A stretch of 64,000 nt of DNA from Halothiobacillus neapolitanus c2 (GTDB lineage: Bacteria; Pseudomonadota; Gammaproteobacteria; Halothiobacillales; Halothiobacillaceae): contig NC_013422.1 in assembly GCF_000024765.1 (NCBI RefSeq), forward strand, positions 1,383,501-1,447,500, in the 5' to 3' direction. The position numbers and the translations under genes are program-made. The notes under the pieces are model-generated. The model did not search any database and had not been told where the DNA came from. It saw only the letters and a program-made list of their open reading frames with translations. How positions within the stretch are numbered: position 1 is the first letter of the stretch; every line of letters starts with the position of its first letter. Positions 6,883 to 64,000 of the stretch are shown here, in pieces.

Positions 6883-9078
6883 ATGAAGCCAAGCACAACG
6901 CCCCTGCCCCGGCGAAACTTCTACTCTCTTTCGCATATCTGGCCCATGTTACTGGGGTTGCTGCTGAGCCCTTGGCTGCTCTATGTTCCTCAGCATTCCA
7001 CGAACCCGCACTTAGAATCCCTGACTGTTCTTGGCATGATCGGCCTCAGTCTGGGATGGACCGGGCTATGGATTGGCATAACCATTCTTGTCCAATTATT
7101 CTCCAATCGAAGTTTTTTCGTCCGAACGAATCATGCGAATGAAAATGGCTCTTCATCAGACTGTTCACCTGGAGACCGGCCAAAAATCCCCGCCCAGCAA
7201 ATCGCGCAGGTCAACCAACACTGGGTTACACCGCTGGGTCATATACGCGCCGCAACGGATACCCTGGCCGAGACGAATGAAAATCCGAATATTAATGAAC
7301 GTCTTACCCCAGAGTTAGCCGTCATTCGTGCCGCCAATGCTGAACTTCGCCTTGCGATCGAAAATGTTCTGGATTATTACGAAGCCACAACCAACCGCCT
7401 TAAAGCAACACCGCGAAAAGCCGATATTCGACTACAAATCGAGGACGCTGTAGCCGAGTGGGAAATTTCCGCCCAACATCGAGTCGGCTTGATCCAATAC
7501 ATCTGTTTTCAGGATGTACCCGGCCTTGTTGCAGTAGATATTCGTCTGTTGCGTCGACTGCTCGACAATTTGCTCGTCATCTTGATTCAGCAACCCGACA
7601 TACAAGATTGCAGCGTCACGTTGCTGGAGTCCGACACCATCGAAGAACTTGGCCTGGAAACAAGTGCTGCAAACACGGCAGAAAATGAAACAAACTTCAC
7701 ATTCGATCTAGTCATTGATGGCAAATCTTCGGGGCCGCTTGATCACTTTGCCGAAGCGCTCAGTAGACCGCAGACTCTCAGTCTTTGTAAAAACACAGAT
7801 CCGTTATTCATGGGCACGGAGCTATCCGTGTGGCTCATCGACCAATTCTGCAGACAACTGGATGCAACATTGATTGTCGGTGAAACAAGGGAAGGACGTC
7901 AGGGTTTTCGATTGAAGTTCACGGCACCCGTACTTGGCGCACACCAACCATGGCAACCCTGGTTACGCGGCAAATCCTGTGCGGTGATCACGCAGTCAGC
8001 CACTCATGCTCAGGCGTGGCGTGGCCATCTTTCCGCCTTCGGCGCGGATATCATACTGGACCCTAGCCGCAGCGAAATTGATTGCCTTTTTATTGACAGT
8101 GAAAATTGGCAGCGGCTGAGTACAGAAATGCCACTTTGGTTCCAACATGCGCGCCAGCACAGCAGGATCATTGCCTTGTGTACGCAATTGTCCCTTCGTG
8201 GACGTCCAATCGGCCAATTCGATTGGGCACAAATCAGCCTACCTATATTTATAAGACAACGCGTACTCCAAACCCTACTCCCAAGAATTCTGCAGAATGA
8301 CAAGATCACGCCCACCCCAAAGAAAAAACAATCGATAACGGCCGAAACTCCGCCGAATCAGACGGAGCAAAGCCTCCCTTCATTTGCCGGCAGAACCGCG
8401 CTTGTCATTGACGACGACAAGATTTATCAAAGTCATCTGGTCAATCTGTTGACCAAGATTGGCGTAACGACGTTATCTGCATCTGATGGCAAAAGCGGCC
8501 TGTACCAAGCACAACACGCTGACCTTGATCTTGTCCTAACCGACATGCACCTTCCCGACATTCTGGGCACAGGAATCGTACGCATGTTGCGAAAACAGGA
8601 TCGACACAGGCACACCCCAGTCATAGCCATTACCGCGAATGTGCAAACGGAGGTGCATCAGTCATTACTCCAGGCCGGAGCCGACATTGTTCTGACCAAG
8701 CCGGTGTCACTGGGTGAGTTGATCAACGCGATCAGCCAGTTTCTGCAACCTATTAACCCGGACCCACCGACTTCCTGCATGGTTCACCCGCGAGATCGGG
8801 TGCTCGACACCCTCCTTTGTGACGAACTGCCAATTTATCGCCAGAACCTGATTCAGACCGACCAGAATCCAGCAATGCTTCGCCATCTGGCGCACAAACT
8901 TCGTGGTGCCGCCGCCTGCTGTCAAGCCAAGTCACTCCAGACGCACGCAGGTATACTCGAAGATCATTTACTGAGCGATCCATCGGATGCCGAACGCATT
9001 GCTTTGCTTACCAAATTGCTAATCGATGCCATCGATGCAACAATCATCGAGCGGAGCTGCCTGACGATTACTCATTAA
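6883..9078 (+). CDS. hybrid sensor kinase with degenerate kinase core, receiver and Hpt domain
   Basis: This is a 731-residue BarA/GacS-like protein. Two membrane segments lie near residues 18-35 and 45-70. A dimerisation region follows, QHWVTPLGHIRA at about 112-123. The classical HELRTPL box aligns with Q112-H113-W-V-T-P-L, so the phospho-histidine position is Gln with His one residue later. The ATPase part has a weak N-box (LLRRLLDNLLVIL) and no clear glycine boxes. A receiver domain at about 505-625 is intact: acidic pair at 510-512, phospho-acceptor Asp554 in LTDMHLP, and TAN and TKP switch residues. The C-terminal Hpt domain has His671 in HKLRGAAA. Probably a phosphorelay protein that cannot autophosphorylate normally. 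Confidence 0.85.
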   Translation: MKPSTTPLPRRNFYSLSHIWPMLLGLLLSPWLLYVPQHSTNPHLESLTVLGMIGLSLGWTGLWIGITILVQLFSNRSFFVRTNHANENGSSSDCSPGDRPKIPAQQIAQVNQHWVTPLGHIRAATDTLAETNENPNINERLTPELAVIRAANAELRLAIENVLDYYEATTNRLKATPRKADIRLQIEDAVAEWEISAQHRVGLIQYICFQDVPGLVAVDIRLLRRLLDNLLVILIQQPDIQDCSVTLLESDTIEELGLETSAANTAENETNFTFDLVIDGKSSGPLDHFAEALSRPQTLSLCKNTDPLFMGTELSVWLIDQFCRQLDATLIVGETREGRQGFRLKFTAPVLGAHQPWQPWLRGKSCAVITQSATHAQAWRGHLSAFGADIILDPSRSEIDCLFIDSENWQRLSTEMPLWFQHARQHSRIIALCTQLSLRGRPIGQFDWAQISLPIFIRQRVLQTLLPRILQNDKITPTPKKKQSITAETPPNQTEQSLPSFAGRTALVIDDDKIYQSHLVNLLTKIGVTTLSASDGKSGLYQAQHADLDLVLTDMHLPDILGTGIVRMLRKQDRHRHTPVIAITANVQTEVHQSLLQAGADIVLTKPVSLGELINAISQFLQPINPDPPTSCMVHPRDRVLDTLLCDELPIYRQNLIQTDQNPAMLRHLAHKLRGAAACCQAKSLQTHAGILEDHLLSDPSDAERIALLTKLLIDAIDATIIERSCLTITH

Positions 9079-9155
9079 TTTTGAAAGCCCACTGATAAAA
9101 AATATGCGCAGAAGCAAGTAATCTTTGGCGGTATCCTTCAGTGTAGATCTGAGCC

Positions 9156-9332
9156 AGTGTACTGTTTTGCTCTTGGAGGTACTTTCAGAGCCGTCCGAAT
9201 GCGTCAGGACAAGGCGCCGTGCGCAGGCAATGGCCACACCCTTGGCAAGCACGGCAACGCCGTCATGGCGCATTCGGAGGACTCCCTTCGGGCGAGCCGC
9301 TGAATGTGCCTCCAAGAACGAAACAGTACACT
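9156..9332. repeat. MITE-like element, long imperfect inverted repeat
   Basis: The two ends, 9156-9182 and 9306-9332, are 27-base inverted repeats differing at three positions; both contain the core CCTCCAAGA and end in CAGTACACT or its complement. Inside them a second perfect 9-base pair, CCGAATGCG with CGCATTCGG, and a GC-rich GGCGCCGTGC/GCACGG pair nearly extend the palindrome to the centre. No transposase frame is inside and no target duplication is evident in the flanks. It sits 25 bases before the start codon of the broken GGDEF-EAL gene. It could be a non-autonomous mobile element or a large hairpin regulator. Confidence 0.65.
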
Positions 9333-9357
9333 AGTTGCCATCAGGAACTTGAAGCAT

Positions 9358-10983
9358 ATGGATTCAGCAGAAATATTAGCTTCGCTAAAGCATCCGGTTT
9401 TTGTTACGGATGCAAGCAAATCACTGCGCTACATCAACGAATGTGCGCGGCATATGCTTGGTCTTCCCCTATCCGGGCAACTGGTCATTGAAGATATCCT
9501 TCGGAAACTTTTGACCAAGGAAGGAGCGTCACTGAGCCGCGAAGCGCTTGCTATCATGGCCCCAATCCATGTCAGTCTGAAATCTGATGATCTCCTTCGA
9601 GTCGACGCCCTATTGAGTGCGCACACCCTGAGTGATCACTCGGTCTGCTATGAACTCAGCCTGATGCAAAACGGTTCGACCACGACGATCGACCCACTTA
9701 CCGGGTTGATGGACCGGGGACATATGCTTAAGCTCATCGGCGCAAGACGTCGTGAAGGCGTAGGCGCACTCATTCTGATCGATATTGATCGCCTGAAAAT
9801 CATCAATGACTTCCTGGGTTATGAAGCGGGAGATCATGTTATTCATGCTTTGGGGCACGCGCTGAGACAGCAGACACACGCATCTGTATGTCTCGCGCGC
9901 TGGAGTGGCCATGAATTCATGGCGTTGGTGCCAAAAAGTCTGATGGACCAAACCGCTCAATTAGCTGAGTCGTTCAACACTATTGCTCGCGAACTTCCAT
10001 TGGCCAAATCACTCAATTTACCGGGCGGGAAACTAAGTCTTAGCGTCGGTTATACCCAGTTTGGCACATCAAAGGTCGACAATCAGGACCCGCTGACCGA
10101 AGTCAACGCCGCAGTCTACGAAGCCAAGCGCGCGGGTCGAAATCGAGCTGTAGATGCTCATCAACTGACAAAGCCATCCATTTACATTACGGGCGGCGCC
10201 TTGGAAACAGCATTGCTCGAAGAGCGAATTGTTGTCGCGGTTCAGCCCATATTCGACTTGAAAACAGGCCAGATCGTTGCGGACGAATCACTTGCCAGAA
10301 TGATAACCAAAGAAGGAGACGTGATTGCGGCAGGCGAATTCATAACGGCTGCCGCCTCACTGCAACTGGCGCATAGAATTGATCAAAGCATCATCAAGCA
10401 AACGATCAACTATTGCGTTACCAGCCACTTTAGTGCGCCACGTGCCCATTTTGTCAACATTTCCGGAGATTTTCTCCACCACCCAGAGCTGATCGAAGAA
10501 ACCATTGTAACGGCGATGAACGCCTGCGCCTGCACCCACCCGGATTAGGCAAGCGCGCGCCAGACCAAACCGTTGGTGATTGAGATCACGGAACGCGAAT
10601 TGGTCGATGACACACTGGAAGCTCTTCGGGCCCTGCAACCGTTGATTGATTTCGGCTTGCGCTTGGCTTTAGATGATTTTGGTAGCGGCTACTCTTCTTA
10701 TCGTTATCTGCTTGACCTTCCGTTCAGTTTCCTGAAAGTTGAAGGGGAGTTGGTTCGGCACATCACCACCAACGACAAGGCTCGACGCATCGTCCAGCAT
10801 ATCCAGCACATGGCCCAGGATCTTGGACTGATTACCGTGGCAGAATTCATCACCGATCAGGCCACCGCAGACATGTTGGCAGACATAGGGTTGGACTGGG
10901 GCCAAGGCTTCCACTTGGGCAAACCGGAACTGTTACAGAAAAATCACCTGCTAAAAAGTTATAAAGAGTGGCACACGATCTGA
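9358..10983 (+). pseudogene. PAS-GGDEF-EAL protein interrupted by in-frame TAG
   Basis: One continuous reading frame of 541 codons is broken by a single TAG at codon 397 (10546-10548). Before it come an N-terminal PAS-like domain (ILASLKHPVFVTDA), a GGDEF domain whose signature reads SGHEF at about residues 183-187, and the first half of an EAL domain with ESL in place of EAL. After it, in the same frame, the EAL domain continues with EITEREL, DDFGSGYSSYRYL, FLKVEG and GLDWGQGFHLGKP. The cyclase signature is degenerate; the phosphodiesterase half keeps several metal-site residues. ATG 9358 is preferred over ATG 9304, which lies inside the inverted repeat. The truncated 396-residue protein would lack EAL active-site residues. 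A CAG-to-TAG change or a sequencing error are the simplest explanations. Confidence 0.85.
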
Positions 10984-11380
10984 TCGGCCATTAGATCAAC
11001 TTAAAAAATGAATTTCTATCTAAAGCCTGCCTTTCTGAGGTCAGTTCATACTCAAACCTGATTGCGGGAACTAGATGTTTATAAACAAACAACTTCTCGA
11101 ATAGATCACGATCTTTAGCTCAAAGCCGCACTTTGCACCTCATCTCCGATTCATTCTGAGGCCAGATGGGAGCACGAACCTCAATAGACAAATATCTTAA
11201 AATGATTGCATGTAGTTCGGTAGAGGAATATAAGGAGATAACGCTTCGAATGTCGTTTATGCAAAGAATAAAATTGAAAATTCCAATCACTAGAAAACGG
11301 CAATCAGGTTATTAAACAAAAAATGTTTCAGAAGCGTTCATGATAATTTAATAAATAAAACAGCGAGGACTAAATAAAGT
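10984..11380. other. AT-rich intergenic region upstream of the PilZ gene
   Basis: Nearly 400 bases with no supportable gene. The region is clearly more AT-rich than the flanking genes and contains a small palindrome TGTTTATAAACA at 11076-11087. A TATAAG hexamer near 11230 could be a -10 element but lacks a good -35 partner. The last part carries GCGAGGA upstream of the ATG at 11381, a plausible ribosome site for the PilZ gene. Confidence 0.5.
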
Positions 11381-11788
11381 ATGTCTCAAGAAGCAACATC
11401 ACCCAAAGAGCAGCGAAAATTCACACGTCTGGAATTGTCATTACCGGGCAGTCTTAAGCTCGAAAACAAAAAATATCGTGTGCGAATCCAAGATATTTCC
11501 CTCAAAGGTGCGCTGATTGAGCAAGAGCACGGTCAAAACGATGATTCGTCAAAACTTGACTTTCAAAAGAATTCTTCTGGACACCTAGTAATTTTAGCAG
11601 ACCCAGAAGACATTCCACTGTTAGAATTAGACGTTCAAATATTGCGTAATCAATCTGGCATGATTGGGTTGACTTGGCCTACTATAGATCTGGACAACCT
11701 AACGCAGTTACGTGAAATACTGATTGCCAATCTTGCAAATGAAGAGCTTATTGATCGTGACCTTATTGAACTATTCCATACTGACTAA
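11381..11788 (+). CDS. PilZ domain protein, predicted c-di-GMP receptor
   Basis: This is a 135-residue single-domain protein. The c-di-GMP-binding signature of PilZ is visible: RKFTRLELSL (an RxxxR-type element near residues 11-20) and QDISLKGALI (a D/NxSxxG element near 40-49), followed by predicted beta strands. Nothing else is fused to it, so it would act by binding a partner. It lies between the broken GGDEF-EAL gene and a GGDEF cyclase gene, which supports a role as local effector. Codon use is more AT-rich than in neighbours, as is the upstream spacer, which may indicate later acquisition. GAGGA about 12 bases before the ATG supports the start. Confidence 0.85.
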   Translation: MSQEATSPKEQRKFTRLELSLPGSLKLENKKYRVRIQDISLKGALIEQEHGQNDDSSKLDFQKNSSGHLVILADPEDIPLLELDVQILRNQSGMIGLTWPTIDLDNLTQLREILIANLANEELIDRDLIELFHTD

Positions 11789-11844
11789 ATACCTCAGGAC
11801 TTCAGGTATATGCCCATCCATGCCGTCAAAAGGAATTTGCAGCC

Positions 11845-12906
11845 ATGTTTGATTACACGCACGATCACGCACAATCTCAAGAGATCCTCCGTCTGGTTCT
11901 TATTGAATTAAATGCATTAAATCTGCCCCCAAACCCCATATTCTTCACCCTGTTCTACGAGCGTGCGCTCAAGCGAGATGCCAGTCTTAACAAAGACATA
12001 GATGATGCCATCAACAGCGATAAGGGACTTAGCGTTGATACTGCTCAGGAAATCTTCGACACGCATGTTTTGAACGGTGCGATCAAGGAAATGAGCAAAG
12101 CGCAAAGCGCACTGCTGCGCGTGATTCGAAACGTCATGATGCAAATGCTCAACACAGGCAATGAGTTTTCGAACTATGCGTCATCCCTCGGTGACTTTGT
12201 GCGCAAAATTGATAGGACGGATTCGGTACAGGATATTCGGATGCTCACTGCCGAGGTGATCGAAGATTCACGCCAACTTGAGCGCACGTCTAAAGAAACA
12301 TCATCGCAATTGAACGATGCCGGAGAGCAGATTACCCGCCTGAAAGAAGAACTCGAAGCAGCCAGAAGGGATGCACGCACCGACCCGCTGACCGGTCTGG
12401 CAAATCGCCGCGGTCTCAATGAACTGCTGCTGCAACGCATCAATCTGTTCTTGCAGGAAAAGACTCCTTTTTGCGTGATTCTGGCAGACATCGACCACTT
12501 CAAACGCATCAATGACTCGTATGGTCATCTGGTTGGCGACAAGATATTGCGCTTCGTGGCACGCACCTTGATGGCCAACATCAAGGGTCAGGACAGCGTC
12601 ATCCGCTTCGGTGGTGAGGAATTTGCGATCGTTCTGCCCTATACGCAATACGATGGGGGGATTATCGTTGCTCAACATCTGAGACAGAAAATTGCTTCAT
12701 CGCGACTCCGACTGGCCGAAAGCGGGCGTGATCTCGGCGGACTCACCATCTCCCTCGGAGTGGCAGCCGTTCATACGGATGACACCCCCGATTCACTCTT
12801 GCGCCGCGCGGACGATGCCTTGCTCAAAGCCAAGGCAGAGGGTCGTGATCGCGTGGTGGGCTTGCCTTCTGAAAAACCCACGGGCGACGTAACTGAAATG
12901 CTTTGA
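11845..12906 (+). CDS. diguanylate cyclase (GGDEF)
   Basis: This 353-residue protein probably makes c-di-GMP from two GTP. Residues 1-130 are a helical region of unknown function without membrane segments, and about 150-185 is a coiled coil (SSQLNDAGEQITRLKEELEAARRDAR). The GGDEF domain then begins with DPLTGLANRRGL and carries the active signature GGEEF at 256-260, with metal ligands in ILADIDHFKRIND. The position of the inhibitory I-site reads KGQD rather than RxxD, so product inhibition may be weak. AAGGA lies about ten bases before ATG 11845. Order after the PilZ gene, 56 bases apart, suggests co-transcription. Confidence 0.93.
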   Translation: MFDYTHDHAQSQEILRLVLIELNALNLPPNPIFFTLFYERALKRDASLNKDIDDAINSDKGLSVDTAQEIFDTHVLNGAIKEMSKAQSALLRVIRNVMMQMLNTGNEFSNYASSLGDFVRKIDRTDSVQDIRMLTAEVIEDSRQLERTSKETSSQLNDAGEQITRLKEELEAARRDARTDPLTGLANRRGLNELLLQRINLFLQEKTPFCVILADIDHFKRINDSYGHLVGDKILRFVARTLMANIKGQDSVIRFGGEEFAIVLPYTQYDGGIIVAQHLRQKIASSRLRLAESGRDLGGLTISLGVAAVHTDDTPDSLLRRADDALLKAKAEGRDRVVGLPSEKPTGDVTEML

Positions 12907-12990
12907 TACTCAGATACAGCACTCATTGAGCTGAATCCTGACCATGCTACTCGGTTGAATGAATTCAATTTGGGCGCATTATTCCCGATC

Positions 12991-13012
12991 CCCATACGAA
13001 TATTCGTATGGG
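12991..13012. repeat. perfect 22-bp palindrome
   Basis: The 22 bases from CCCATACGAAT to ATTCGTATGGG are perfectly self-complementary. It lies 84 bases after the cyclase stop and 50 bases before the PAS gene. No T-run follows on the plus strand, so it is not a typical intrinsic terminator. A DNA-binding protein site or RNA hairpin are possible. Confidence 0.6.
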
Positions 13013-13062
13013 CAAGGAATAAGGCTCAAGGATGAATTGCTTTTTCAACAGGTACGCATTAA

Positions 13063-13617
13063 ATGTTATCCATGGGATTCAATCCGTCCATCGACGTTAC
13101 ACAAGTAACCAATAAAGCCATAGAACTTGGTTCACATCGCGCACTGCAATCGAAGACCGATCTTCAGGGCATCATCACGCACGCAAGTCGCTCTTTAGCA
13201 GACATCTCCGGTTTTACCGTAGATGAGCTGATCGGCCAACCCCATAATATTTTGCGCCATCCGGCCATGCCCGACGCCGTTTACTACTTGATGTGGCAAA
13301 AAATCCGGATGGGTGAAGAGTTCTACGGCATCGTGAAAAATCGCTGCAAGAATGGCGACCATTACTGGGTAATGACACGCGTAGCGCCCGTCATCGAGAA
13401 TGGCGCTCCCGTAGGTTACACATCGGCCAGATTCACCCCACGCACCGAGCTCGTCCCCATGTGGGAAGAACTCTTCGCGAAGATGCGGGACGCCGAAAAC
13501 GGCAGTGGCTTCAATGACGAACGCCGTTTCAAGCCGGCACACGATATCTTGTGCAAACTGGTTCAACGAAAAGGCTATAACGATCTGAGCCAGCTTGTGT
13601 TATCTCAACGCGTCTAA
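13063..13617 (+). CDS. Aer-type PAS domain protein without a signalling domain
   Basis: The 184 residues contain one PAS domain of the Aer aerotaxis type: TDLQGIITHASRSLADISGF, then LIGQPHNILRHPAMPDAVYYLMWQKI and GIVKNRCKNGDHYWVMTRVAPV (about residues 28-125). In Aer this domain binds FAD and senses redox state. Here it is followed only by about 50 residues and no methyl-accepting, HAMP or kinase domain, so signal output must go through a partner. ATG 13063 is used; a second ATG at 13072 is possible. It follows the c-di-GMP genes and precedes the cyd region, which would suit redox input, but that is inference. Confidence 0.82.
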   Translation: MLSMGFNPSIDVTQVTNKAIELGSHRALQSKTDLQGIITHASRSLADISGFTVDELIGQPHNILRHPAMPDAVYYLMWQKIRMGEEFYGIVKNRCKNGDHYWVMTRVAPVIENGAPVGYTSARFTPRTELVPMWEELFAKMRDAENGSGFNDERRFKPAHDILCKLVQRKGYNDLSQLVLSQRV

Positions 13618-61174: not shown

Positions 61175-62053
61175 TCAGGATTGGGATGTTGCTGGTCGGT
61201 ACAGTGCGTCCCGAACGGCCTTGGCGTCGGCAAAAAGCTTTTCAACACCGGCACTGTCACTCGCTTCGATCAACTGCCGCAGTCGGTGCAACTCAACCAG
61301 ATAATGATCCAGCATCGGCAGCAATTCATCTCGGTTCGCGACACAGATATCACGCCACATTTGCGGATCGGAGCTGGCAATGCGAGAAAAATCACGGAAT
61401 CCGCCCGCGGCATAACGGAACACCTCGTACCGCTCTTCAAGGCGGGACAAAGCGGACACCAGACCGAAGGCGGCTAAGTGAGGCAAATGACTGGTTGCCG
61501 CCAACACATGATCATGATGCTGAACATCCATCTGTTCGACGATGGCACCCACACTTTGCCAAAGATCGACGGCACGAGTCACCATCTCGGGGGCATTTTC
61601 GCTAATGGGTGTCAGGATCACGCGGTGATCAACGAACAAGGTGGCGAACGCCGCATCGGGGCCGCTGCGTTCGGTACCGGCAATCGGGTGGCCGGGGACA
61701 AACTGCCCCCACTGCGCGGGGCTCAAAGACAACTTTGCAGCTGCCACCACATTGCCTTTCACACTACCGCCGTCGGTGATTAATGCGCCTGGATCAAGCT
61801 CGGGGCCTATTTCAGCGAAAACCGATGCCATCGCCTGTACCGGCGTGGCAATAAACACCACATCGGCACCACGCACCGCCTCAGCGGCGGAATCGACAGG
61901 TCGATCGATCAGTCCTAGCTCGCGCGCGCGAAGCCGGGTCTGCAACTGACGGCTATAGCCCACCACCTCGCCGACCAGTCCTCGTTCCTTGAGTGCCAGA
62001 CTCAAGGAACCGCCGATCAAACCCAGACCAATAAGTGCCAGACGGTTGATCAT
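61175..62053 (-). CDS. tyrA: prephenate/arogenate dehydrogenase
   Basis: TyrA oxidises prephenate or arogenate with NAD(P)+ to the tyrosine precursor. From ATG 62053 it has 292 residues; GTG 62056 is one codon earlier. N-terminal NRLALIGLGLIGGSLSLALKERG is the dinucleotide-binding motif. VFIATPVQAMASVFAEIGPELDPGALITDGGSVKGNVV (near 69-105) and FVPGHPIAGTERSGPDAAFATLFVDHRVILTP (near 119-150) follow, then the helical dimerisation domain. No chorismate mutase fusion and no ACT domain are seen. It lies between hisC and aroA, as in pseudomonads. Confidence 0.96.
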   Translation of the reverse strand: MINRLALIGLGLIGGSLSLALKERGLVGEVVGYSRQLQTRLRARELGLIDRPVDSAAEAVRGADVVFIATPVQAMASVFAEIGPELDPGALITDGGSVKGNVVAAAKLSLSPAQWGQFVPGHPIAGTERSGPDAAFATLFVDHRVILTPISENAPEMVTRAVDLWQSVGAIVEQMDVQHHDHVLAATSHLPHLAAFGLVSALSRLEERYEVFRYAAGGFRDFSRIASSDPQMWRDICVANRDELLPMLDHYLVELHRLRQLIEASDSAGVEKLFADAKAVRDALYRPATSQS

Positions 62054-62062
62054 CACCCAAAT

Positions 62063-63247
62063 CTAACCCGCAGTTGCCCGAAGTGTCGTCAGCACGAGGT
62101 CCATCGCGGCCAGTGCACGTTCATTCTGAGCCTGCGTGCCAATCGTGATCCGGATATGGCACGAAAGCCCACCGGTATCGGATTTGCCGCCCAAAGGTCG
62201 GACAATCACACCCTCACGAAGCAAGGCATCAAACACAAGCCCGGCGGGCAAACCTGTATTGACGGTAACGAAATTGGCAAGCGATGGAATAACTGATAGA
62301 CCGCGCGACGCCAATGCTTTTGCCATGAAGTCCAGTCCGGTCGCGTTCACCGCGCGGCTATGCAGGATAAACTCTTCATCTGCCAGAGCCGCTTCGGCCG
62401 CCTTGAGCGCAAGACTATTGACGTTGAATGGCTGCCGCACCCGATCAAGAATAGCGATGACTTGCGGATGACCTACCGCGAAGCCCACGCGAAGCGCTGC
62501 CAGCCCATAGATTTTGGAGAAGGTGCGCATAACAAGCACATTGGGGAATTCGCGCGCCAAAAGCAGGCCATCGGGAAAACGGCCATCGGCATAAAAAGCA
62601 CGATCAACATATTCACTGTAGGCCTCGTCAAGAACCACAACGACACTGTCTGGCACGGCTTCCAGAAACGCGCGCAACTCAGGTTCACTGACCCAGGTAC
62701 CCGTCGGGTTGTTCGGGTTAGCCAGAAAGACCACGCGGGTATCGGCATCGATGGCGGCAGCCATGGCAGGCAGATCGGCGCCATACGGCATGGTCGGATG
62801 ATCGGGTGGTAGCGCAGGCACAATTTTAGCCTGCGCACCCGTGGCCTGAGTTACCAAAGCGTAAACCGCAAAAGCATGAGCGGAGAACACGGCATTACGC
62901 CCCGGTGAAAGATACGCGCGGGCAACCAATTCCAGCAGATCATTCGAACCATTACCCAGCGTGATCGCAGATGGCGCCACATCGAACTTCTTTGCAATGG
63001 CGGTTTTAAGTGCGTAGCCACTGCCATCGGGGTAAATATGTAGATCGTCCAGAGACTGCATAGCCGCGCGAGCACGCGGGCTGGCACCCAGGGGATTCTC
63101 GTTGGAAGCCAGCTTGATGATGTCGGTCAGGCCGAATTCACGTGCGACTTCATCAACGGGTTTGCCGATGACGTATGGGGAAATGGCACGTACGTAATCC
63201 AGCGCCTGCCCCGACAATTGTTGACCGATGCGATCGTATGCGCTCAT
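62063..63247 (-). CDS. hisC: histidinol-phosphate aminotransferase, HisC2-like
   Basis: A 394-residue class I/II PLP aminotransferase from ATG 63247, overlapping the pheA stop (ATGA). Signatures are KLASNENPLGASPRARAAM near 45, GNGSNDLLELVARAYLSPG near 97, LANPNNPTGTWVSEPEL near 175, VVVLDEAYSEYVDR near 203 and the PLP lysine in MRTFSKIYGLAALRVGF near 236. Its place in the aromatic cluster between pheA and tyrA suggests it also or mainly transaminates prephenate or phenylpyruvate; histidine genes are not nearby. The longer frame to 63346 lies inside pheA. Confidence 0.95.
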   Translation of the reverse strand: MSAYDRIGQQLSGQALDYVRAISPYVIGKPVDEVAREFGLTDIIKLASNENPLGASPRARAAMQSLDDLHIYPDGSGYALKTAIAKKFDVAPSAITLGNGSNDLLELVARAYLSPGRNAVFSAHAFAVYALVTQATGAQAKIVPALPPDHPTMPYGADLPAMAAAIDADTRVVFLANPNNPTGTWVSEPELRAFLEAVPDSVVVVLDEAYSEYVDRAFYADGRFPDGLLLAREFPNVLVMRTFSKIYGLAALRVGFAVGHPQVIAILDRVRQPFNVNSLALKAAEAALADEEFILHSRAVNATGLDFMAKALASRGLSVIPSLANFVTVNTGLPAGLVFDALLREGVIVRPLGGKSDTGGLSCHIRITIGTQAQNERALAAMDLVLTTLRATAG

Positions 63248-64000
63248 GACACAACCCTGCCCGATGTTGATCCACCCGCTGCATTGGGACTTGATGCAGA
63301 CATGACCGCGCGTGGATAGGAACCCAAAACACGAAGAGAACTGCAAAACGGTTGCATTTTGCTCAGGGCCGCCCGAATGCGCTCATCGTCTGCATGTCCT
63401 TCGAAATCGATGAAAAACACATACTCCCACGCCCGTTCCCGCGCTGGTCGGGATTCGATGCGCATAACATCAATCCCCGCCTCCGCCAGCGGTGCAAGCA
63501 AACGCGACAACGCTCCGGGCATGTTGTTGACGGAAAGCACCAGTGAGGTTTTGTCCGCACCCGAGGGCGGTACTGTGTCCCGACCGATCACGACGAATCG
63601 GGTGGTATTGAACGCACTGTCCTGAATGTTTGCAGCGACTATATCCAGACCATGCTGCTCTGCAGCCAGCGTGGGACCAATGGCCATGATGCTTGGTGAT
63701 TCAGCGGCAAGGCGAGCAGCTTCGCTATTGCTCTGCACCGCAATGCGTTCGACGCCGGGATAGTGAACGTCCAGCCATTCCCGACATTGGGCCAATGACT
63801 GGGCATGGGACACAATACGCTGGGGCAAGACATCGCGCGCATCCTGCCGAGCCATCAACTGCTGATCTATCTTGAGCGACAGTTCACCGCAAATGCGGAC
63901 TTCCCCGGGCACCCAAACACCATACAAGGCGCCACCAGTCGCTCCAAATGCCAAGGCATCCAAGGTTTGGGACACGCTGCCTTCCGTGGAGTTTTCAACG
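63244..64000 (-). CDS. pheA: prephenate dehydratase (P-protein), 5'-truncated by window edge
   Basis: PheA makes phenylpyruvate from prephenate; the N-terminal part, possibly a chorismate mutase domain, is outside the window. The frame is open to the window end, where it encodes ENSTEGSVSQTLDAL, the conserved PDT motif, so the GTG at 63975 is internal. IAVQSNSEAARLA and the conserved TTRFVVIG follow. The C-terminal ACT domain has VNNMPGALSRLLAPLAEAGIDVMRIESRPARERAWEYVFFID; the ESRP motif binds phenylalanine, so feedback inhibition is likely. It is the first gene seen of the pheA-hisC-tyrA-aroA-cmk operon. Confidence 0.96.
   Translation of the reverse strand, partial: VENSTEGSVSQTLDALAFGATGGALYGVWVPGEVRICGELSLKIDQQLMARQDARDVLPQRIVSHAQSLAQCREWLDVHYPGVERIAVQSNSEAARLAAESPSIMAIGPTLAAEQHGLDIVAANIQDSAFNTTRFVVIGRDTVPPSGADKTSLVLSVNNMPGALSRLLAPLAEAGIDVMRIESRPARERAWEYVFFIDFEGHADDERIRAALSKMQPFCSSLRVLGSYPRAVMSASSPNAAGGSTSGRVVS

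Follow-up and report, generated by a model that had tools for sequence, protein, structure and literature searches.

An active GGDEF diguanylate cyclase carries the signature GG[D/E]EF, and the catalytic segments of an EAL domain comprise the E of ExL, followed by N, TE, DD, K, E, and Q. Nonsense codons in genes of c-di-GMP metabolism have been described in Shigella, where dgcE, dgcQ, and dgcN bearing such mutations still made c-di-GMP (PMC11327459). For two of the nonsense-bearing genes, a product as large as the full-length protein is described there, and read-through is offered as one possible cause (PMC11327459). The gene considered here, a GGDEF-EAL gene of Halothiobacillus neapolitanus c2, is likewise interrupted by a nonsense codon. 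It lies in a 64,000-nucleotide stretch of the genome, referred to below as the window, and its surroundings are made up of the following features (window positions).

6883–9078, + strand: gene preceding the broken one, encoding receiver and Hpt domains (Pfam); kinase-like by inspection only
9156–9332, no strand assigned: MITE-like inverted-repeat element of 177 bp, in the gap from gene 6883–9078 to the start codon; missing here in the relatives G001 and G002
9358–10545, + strand: N-terminal open part, with a weakly PAS-like N-terminus, a GGDEF domain with SGHEF, and EAL profile positions 3–106 of 236
10546–10548, + strand: in-frame TAG; glutamine is encoded at the aligned position of the other same-genus orthologues (9 of 9)
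10549–10983, + strand: remainder of the EAL domain (profile positions 115–236) in the same frame, ending in TGA, with the segments ITE, DDFGSG, LKVE, VAEF, and GQGF

The reading frame runs for 396 codons from ATG 9358 to the TAG, and then for a further 144 codons to TGA 10981–10983. It is the same on both sides of the TAG, with no other stop or frameshift within the gene. Pfam matches follow this layout: GGDEF at residues 110–263 (E 8.8e-25), the first portion of EAL (PF00563) before the TAG (E 2.4e-14), and the complementary portion after it (E 9.3e-33), both EAL halves passing the Pfam cut-off. A single EAL domain is thus split in two by the TAG without a change of frame, and chance is no explanation for such a match. 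A frameshift, or two separate genes, was ruled out by the shared frame and by the one EAL profile that spans the stop. The description of the locus in the first-pass annotation, as a GGDEF-EAL gene divided by one in-frame TAG, is therefore borne out by translation and Pfam alike.

The longest possible ATG start is at 9304, inside the inserted repeat element. Position 9358 is preferred because it is backed by the orthologue alignment, in which the codon matching this start is ATG in seven of nine relatives and GTG in one, while the ninth match starts four residues in. The PAS-like character of the N-terminus is below threshold. When residues 1–111 were searched alone, PAS_8 scored 20.1 bits (cut-off 21.8) and PAS 16.3 bits (cut-off 22.6), and the whole N-terminal part gave no Pfam PAS match at E 0.001. 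The same part, used as a query, found 24 related places in its own genome, its own gene included.

Orthologues were sought in 40 genomes, and a genus-wide search covered 10, the c2 genome being counted in each set. In all nine of the other same-genus genomes, at least eight of which are metagenome-assembled, the orthologue is uninterrupted and full length, with identities of 92, 86, and 66–71%. Each has glutamine at the codon aligned with 10546–10548, the outcome anticipated by the first-pass annotation, which had proposed a comparison with close relatives as its check. The TAG is private to the c2 genome within the ten-genome genus sample, and the gene has the premature stop of a nonsense pseudogene, set against nine whole orthologues. 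Two of the metagenome-assembled genomes are titled Halothiobacillus neapolitanus, and their best orthologue segments are just 62 and 66% identical to the c2 protein; as applied to these two, the species name is probably drawn too broadly. Possible interruptions of this kind are also seen in other GGDEF/EAL matches, of which at least four among the matches listed have one internal stop (in genomes G035, G025, G001, and G031). One further candidate for a second in-frame TAG (match 126553–127080) was rejected, since the TAG is codon 168 of 176, preceded by 462 open codons and followed by 29, and is thus an ordinary gene end.

The explanation favored here is that a single nonsense point mutation within the EAL domain has very probably shortened a conserved GGDEF-EAL regulator in this lineage. 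The allele is probably young, and the case an ordinary one. Translation would stop after 396 codons. The product would retain its N-terminal region and GGDEF domain but under half of the EAL domain. Because the TAG precedes the ITE, DDFG, LK, VAE, and GQG segments, the truncated chain would lack them all, and phosphodiesterase function should be lost.

What would have been lost can be judged from the ancestral protein. The segments DESLAR, NIS, ITERE, DDFGSG, LKVE or LKIE, VAE, and GQG are present in the ten alignment rows, one of which reads MTERE. In the c2 gene, these catalytic segments do not lie in one chain, as the TAG comes before TE, DDFG, K, VAE, and Q. The active-cyclase signature GG[D/E]EF is absent throughout, its place being taken by an identical SGHEF in 10 of 10 genus genomes. 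Since SGHEF is common to all ten, the non-canonical signature is ancestral, and recent degeneration of the GGDEF motif was ruled out. SGHEF had earlier been described as degenerate; it is indeed non-canonical, but forms no part of the decay. Given that the EAL segments are retained and that the cyclase signature is non-canonical genus-wide, the ancestral protein was most likely an enzyme of c-di-GMP breakdown. More broadly, its role was likely the breakdown or sensing of c-di-GMP, with the GGDEF domain serving a regulatory function.

The TAG is accompanied by a second change that the first-pass annotation had not recorded, namely the insertion of a 177-bp element upstream of the gene, private to this lineage at this site. 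The element (9156–9332) sits between gene 6883–9078 and the GGDEF-EAL gene, and ends 25 bp ahead of the start codon, which is spared together with those 25 bases. In an alignment with G001 and G002, the closest relatives, no element is present at this site. A counterpart of gene 6883–9078, in which no Pfam kinase domain was found at E 0.1, lies upstream of the orthologue in all eight named relatives. The gap from its stop codon to the start codon is 279 bp in c2 versus 82–120 bp in those eight.

The genome has five copies of the element with paired ends; two measure 177 bp and the other three 267–269 bp. The four copies other than that at 9156–9332 are located as follows (genome positions).

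1172207–1172473: element copy with paired ends
1547937–1548203: element copy with paired ends
1875300–1875476: element copy with paired ends
2174093–2174361: element copy with paired ends

These four share 95–97% identity with the 9156–9332 copy across the aligned parts. A search with the end pattern (≤3 mismatches) returned 11 places, comprising the ten ends of the five copies and one at 2420663–2420686 with three mismatches. Multiple copies and terminal inverted repeats, the hallmarks by which a MITE is recognized, are thus present together. Related sequences exist elsewhere in G001 and G002, and there is one partial match in G003, which brings the genomes concerned to four of the ten in the genus, c2 included. 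Some element borders read CT|AG, but at the 9156–9332 copy the left border is CC|AG and the right one CT|AG. When folded, the RNA of 9150–9340 forms a single extended hairpin (−108.3 kcal/mol, z −8.75). A consensus scan for promoters and terminators found nothing promoter-like on the + strand and nothing terminator-like at the element. Over 8900–11400, the scan gave a single promoter-like site, on the − strand, and two terminator-like sites, which fall within the gene; each count is lower than its shuffle mean. The element, 25 bp before the start codon, may have reduced expression that reaches the gene from 6883–9078.

The age of the stop was approached through private changes, counted in a three-taxon comparison with G001 and G002, the latter serving as outgroup. 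Behind the TAG, the c2 genome has eight synonymous and two non-synonymous private changes, compared with eight and three in G001 and 34 and 13 in G002. By these counts, no relaxation of selection is seen behind the TAG in c2, and past purifying selection has acted on this part of the gene. Had the entire branch been neutral, ~27 non-synonymous changes would be expected there versus the two observed. Under a simple Poisson model with a background omega of 0.04, a value chosen by the authors, the neutral share of the branch is bounded, at the 5% level, to less than ~20% (P = 0.053 for a share of 20% and 0.020 for one of 25%). On that model, the TAG arose in roughly the last fifth of the branch since the closest sampled relative, which may still be a long time. 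An earlier claim of one recent nonsense mutation therefore stands as regards a single nonsense change in one gene, while “recent” is only roughly bounded. The low non-synonymous count is consistent with a stop that came late on the branch, and equally with a tail that is still translated.

Before the TAG, synonymous and non-synonymous private changes number 64 and 26 in c2, 16 and 14 in G001, and 67 and 43 in G002. Around alignment columns 240–360, G001 shows zero private changes and G002 few, and the c2 genome many. This mosaic divergence within 9358–10545 suggests recombination between the G001 and G002 lineages. With the mid-gene pattern read in that way, faster decay of the c2 copy before the TAG was set aside as an explanation.

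Several other accounts of the TAG can be given. The real codon may be a sense codon and the gene whole, with the TAG introduced by an error of sequencing or assembly; the TAG is one base from a sense codon and the rest of the gene is unbroken, as such an error would have it. Finished genomes seldom contain isolated substitution errors, however, and the sequence that carries the TAG, assembled from one strain, is a single contig of 2,582,886 bases with 99.94% completeness. Moreover, the insertion of the upstream element is a separate private change, and not an error of that type. An error of sequencing or assembly is considered very unlikely; the TAG might also be a mutation acquired in culture. 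Alternatively, the TAG could be read through by an amber tRNA, by near-cognate reading, or by a programmed signal, yielding full-length enzyme at a lower level. Strong constraint on the part behind the TAG speaks for this, as does the full-length-size product of nonsense-bearing c-di-GMP genes in Shigella (PMC11327459), and the intact, undecayed tail would be compatible with continued translation too. Yet the TAG is found in one of ten genus genomes, unlike a conserved programmed site. The tRNA survey found 38 genes above the cut-off, all within the 38 loci run through ARAGORN, and none has a CTA anticodon, although the set is incomplete, lacking any Lys tRNA and Ile GAT. The PylS model likewise gave no match above its cut-off (178.15 bits), the one weak match (22.8 bits) being in a threonyl-tRNA synthetase-like gene, so named by inspection. 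Finally, TAG serves as the end codon in 5 of the 42 non-overlapping ORFs of ≥200 aa in the window, namely the broken gene and four others. Read-through is judged slightly less probable again than sequencing error. Since there are two private lesions, the TAG and the element, gene loss is favored over programmed read-through.

Two more elaborate schemes fare no better. In one, the TAG would act as a lineage-specific dosage valve, in which amber read-through at a low level maintains a little full-length phosphodiesterase, most chains ending as a GGDEF protein that lacks EAL, and the hairpin element upstream further tunes expression; this is held to be highly improbable. In the other, the truncated protein would be complemented by a separate C-terminal piece begun at TTG 10573 or GTG 10576, codons that do lie in frame after the TAG. 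No Shine-Dalgarno-like sequence is visible by eye ahead of the first in-frame TTG/GTG, and the cut falls within one domain, whereas the Shigella stops come before an intact GGDEF domain (PMC11327459). A pair of complementing chains is the most improbable of the readings weighed here. Truncation by a nonsense mutation, with probable loss of function, is retained as the best explanation.

Elsewhere in the window, PilZ, GGDEF, and PAS genes lie downstream (11381–13617), and these are found beside the orthologue in only two of the eight named relatives (tblastn, 1e-10; ~1.5–5.5 kb of downstream sequence compared). A hisC-like gene at 62063–63346 (− strand, named by inspection) also ends in TAG, after which its frame stays open for 295 codons into a tyrA-like gene (61175–62056). 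Read-through at this point would yield a fusion protein, and the shared frame is probably a coincidence.

Halothiobacillus neapolitanus c2 is a model organism for carboxysomes. With the gene truncated, the c-di-GMP network of this strain would be without one conserved regulator of the phosphodiesterase type, a circumstance of relevance when its attachment or biofilm formation is compared with that of relatives. Otherwise, the locus represents another young nonsense allele within a large gene family. Among the papers listed for the species together with c-di-GMP or with pseudogenes, none has a title about this gene.

With respect to known systems, the upstream element resembles MITEs in being short (177–269 bp, leaving no room for a transposase gene), in having terminal inverted repeats, and in its five copies. 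It differs in that no mobilizing transposase was identified for it and in that the border of the 9156–9332 copy is not a clean target duplication. The interrupted gene itself is most like the dgcE, dgcQ, dgcN, and dgcM alleles of Shigella flexneri, which are c-di-GMP genes that have hardly changed apart from gaining a nonsense codon and that are intact in relatives (PMC11327459). The difference is one of position, as the stops there precede an intact GGDEF domain, and here the EAL domain itself is cut (PMC11327459). The part after the TAG matches 40 distinct PDB sequences (E up to 0.001). Among these EAL-domain structures, 3s83 and 3u2e give 115-residue alignments with the tail and have the TE, DDFG, LK, VAE, and GQGF segments in common with it, and YahA (4kie) and PA0861 (5xgb) are further structures to which it can be likened. 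Compared with such solved EAL-domain proteins, the c2 gene has the local variants ESL, KVE, and AEF, and is split by a TAG.
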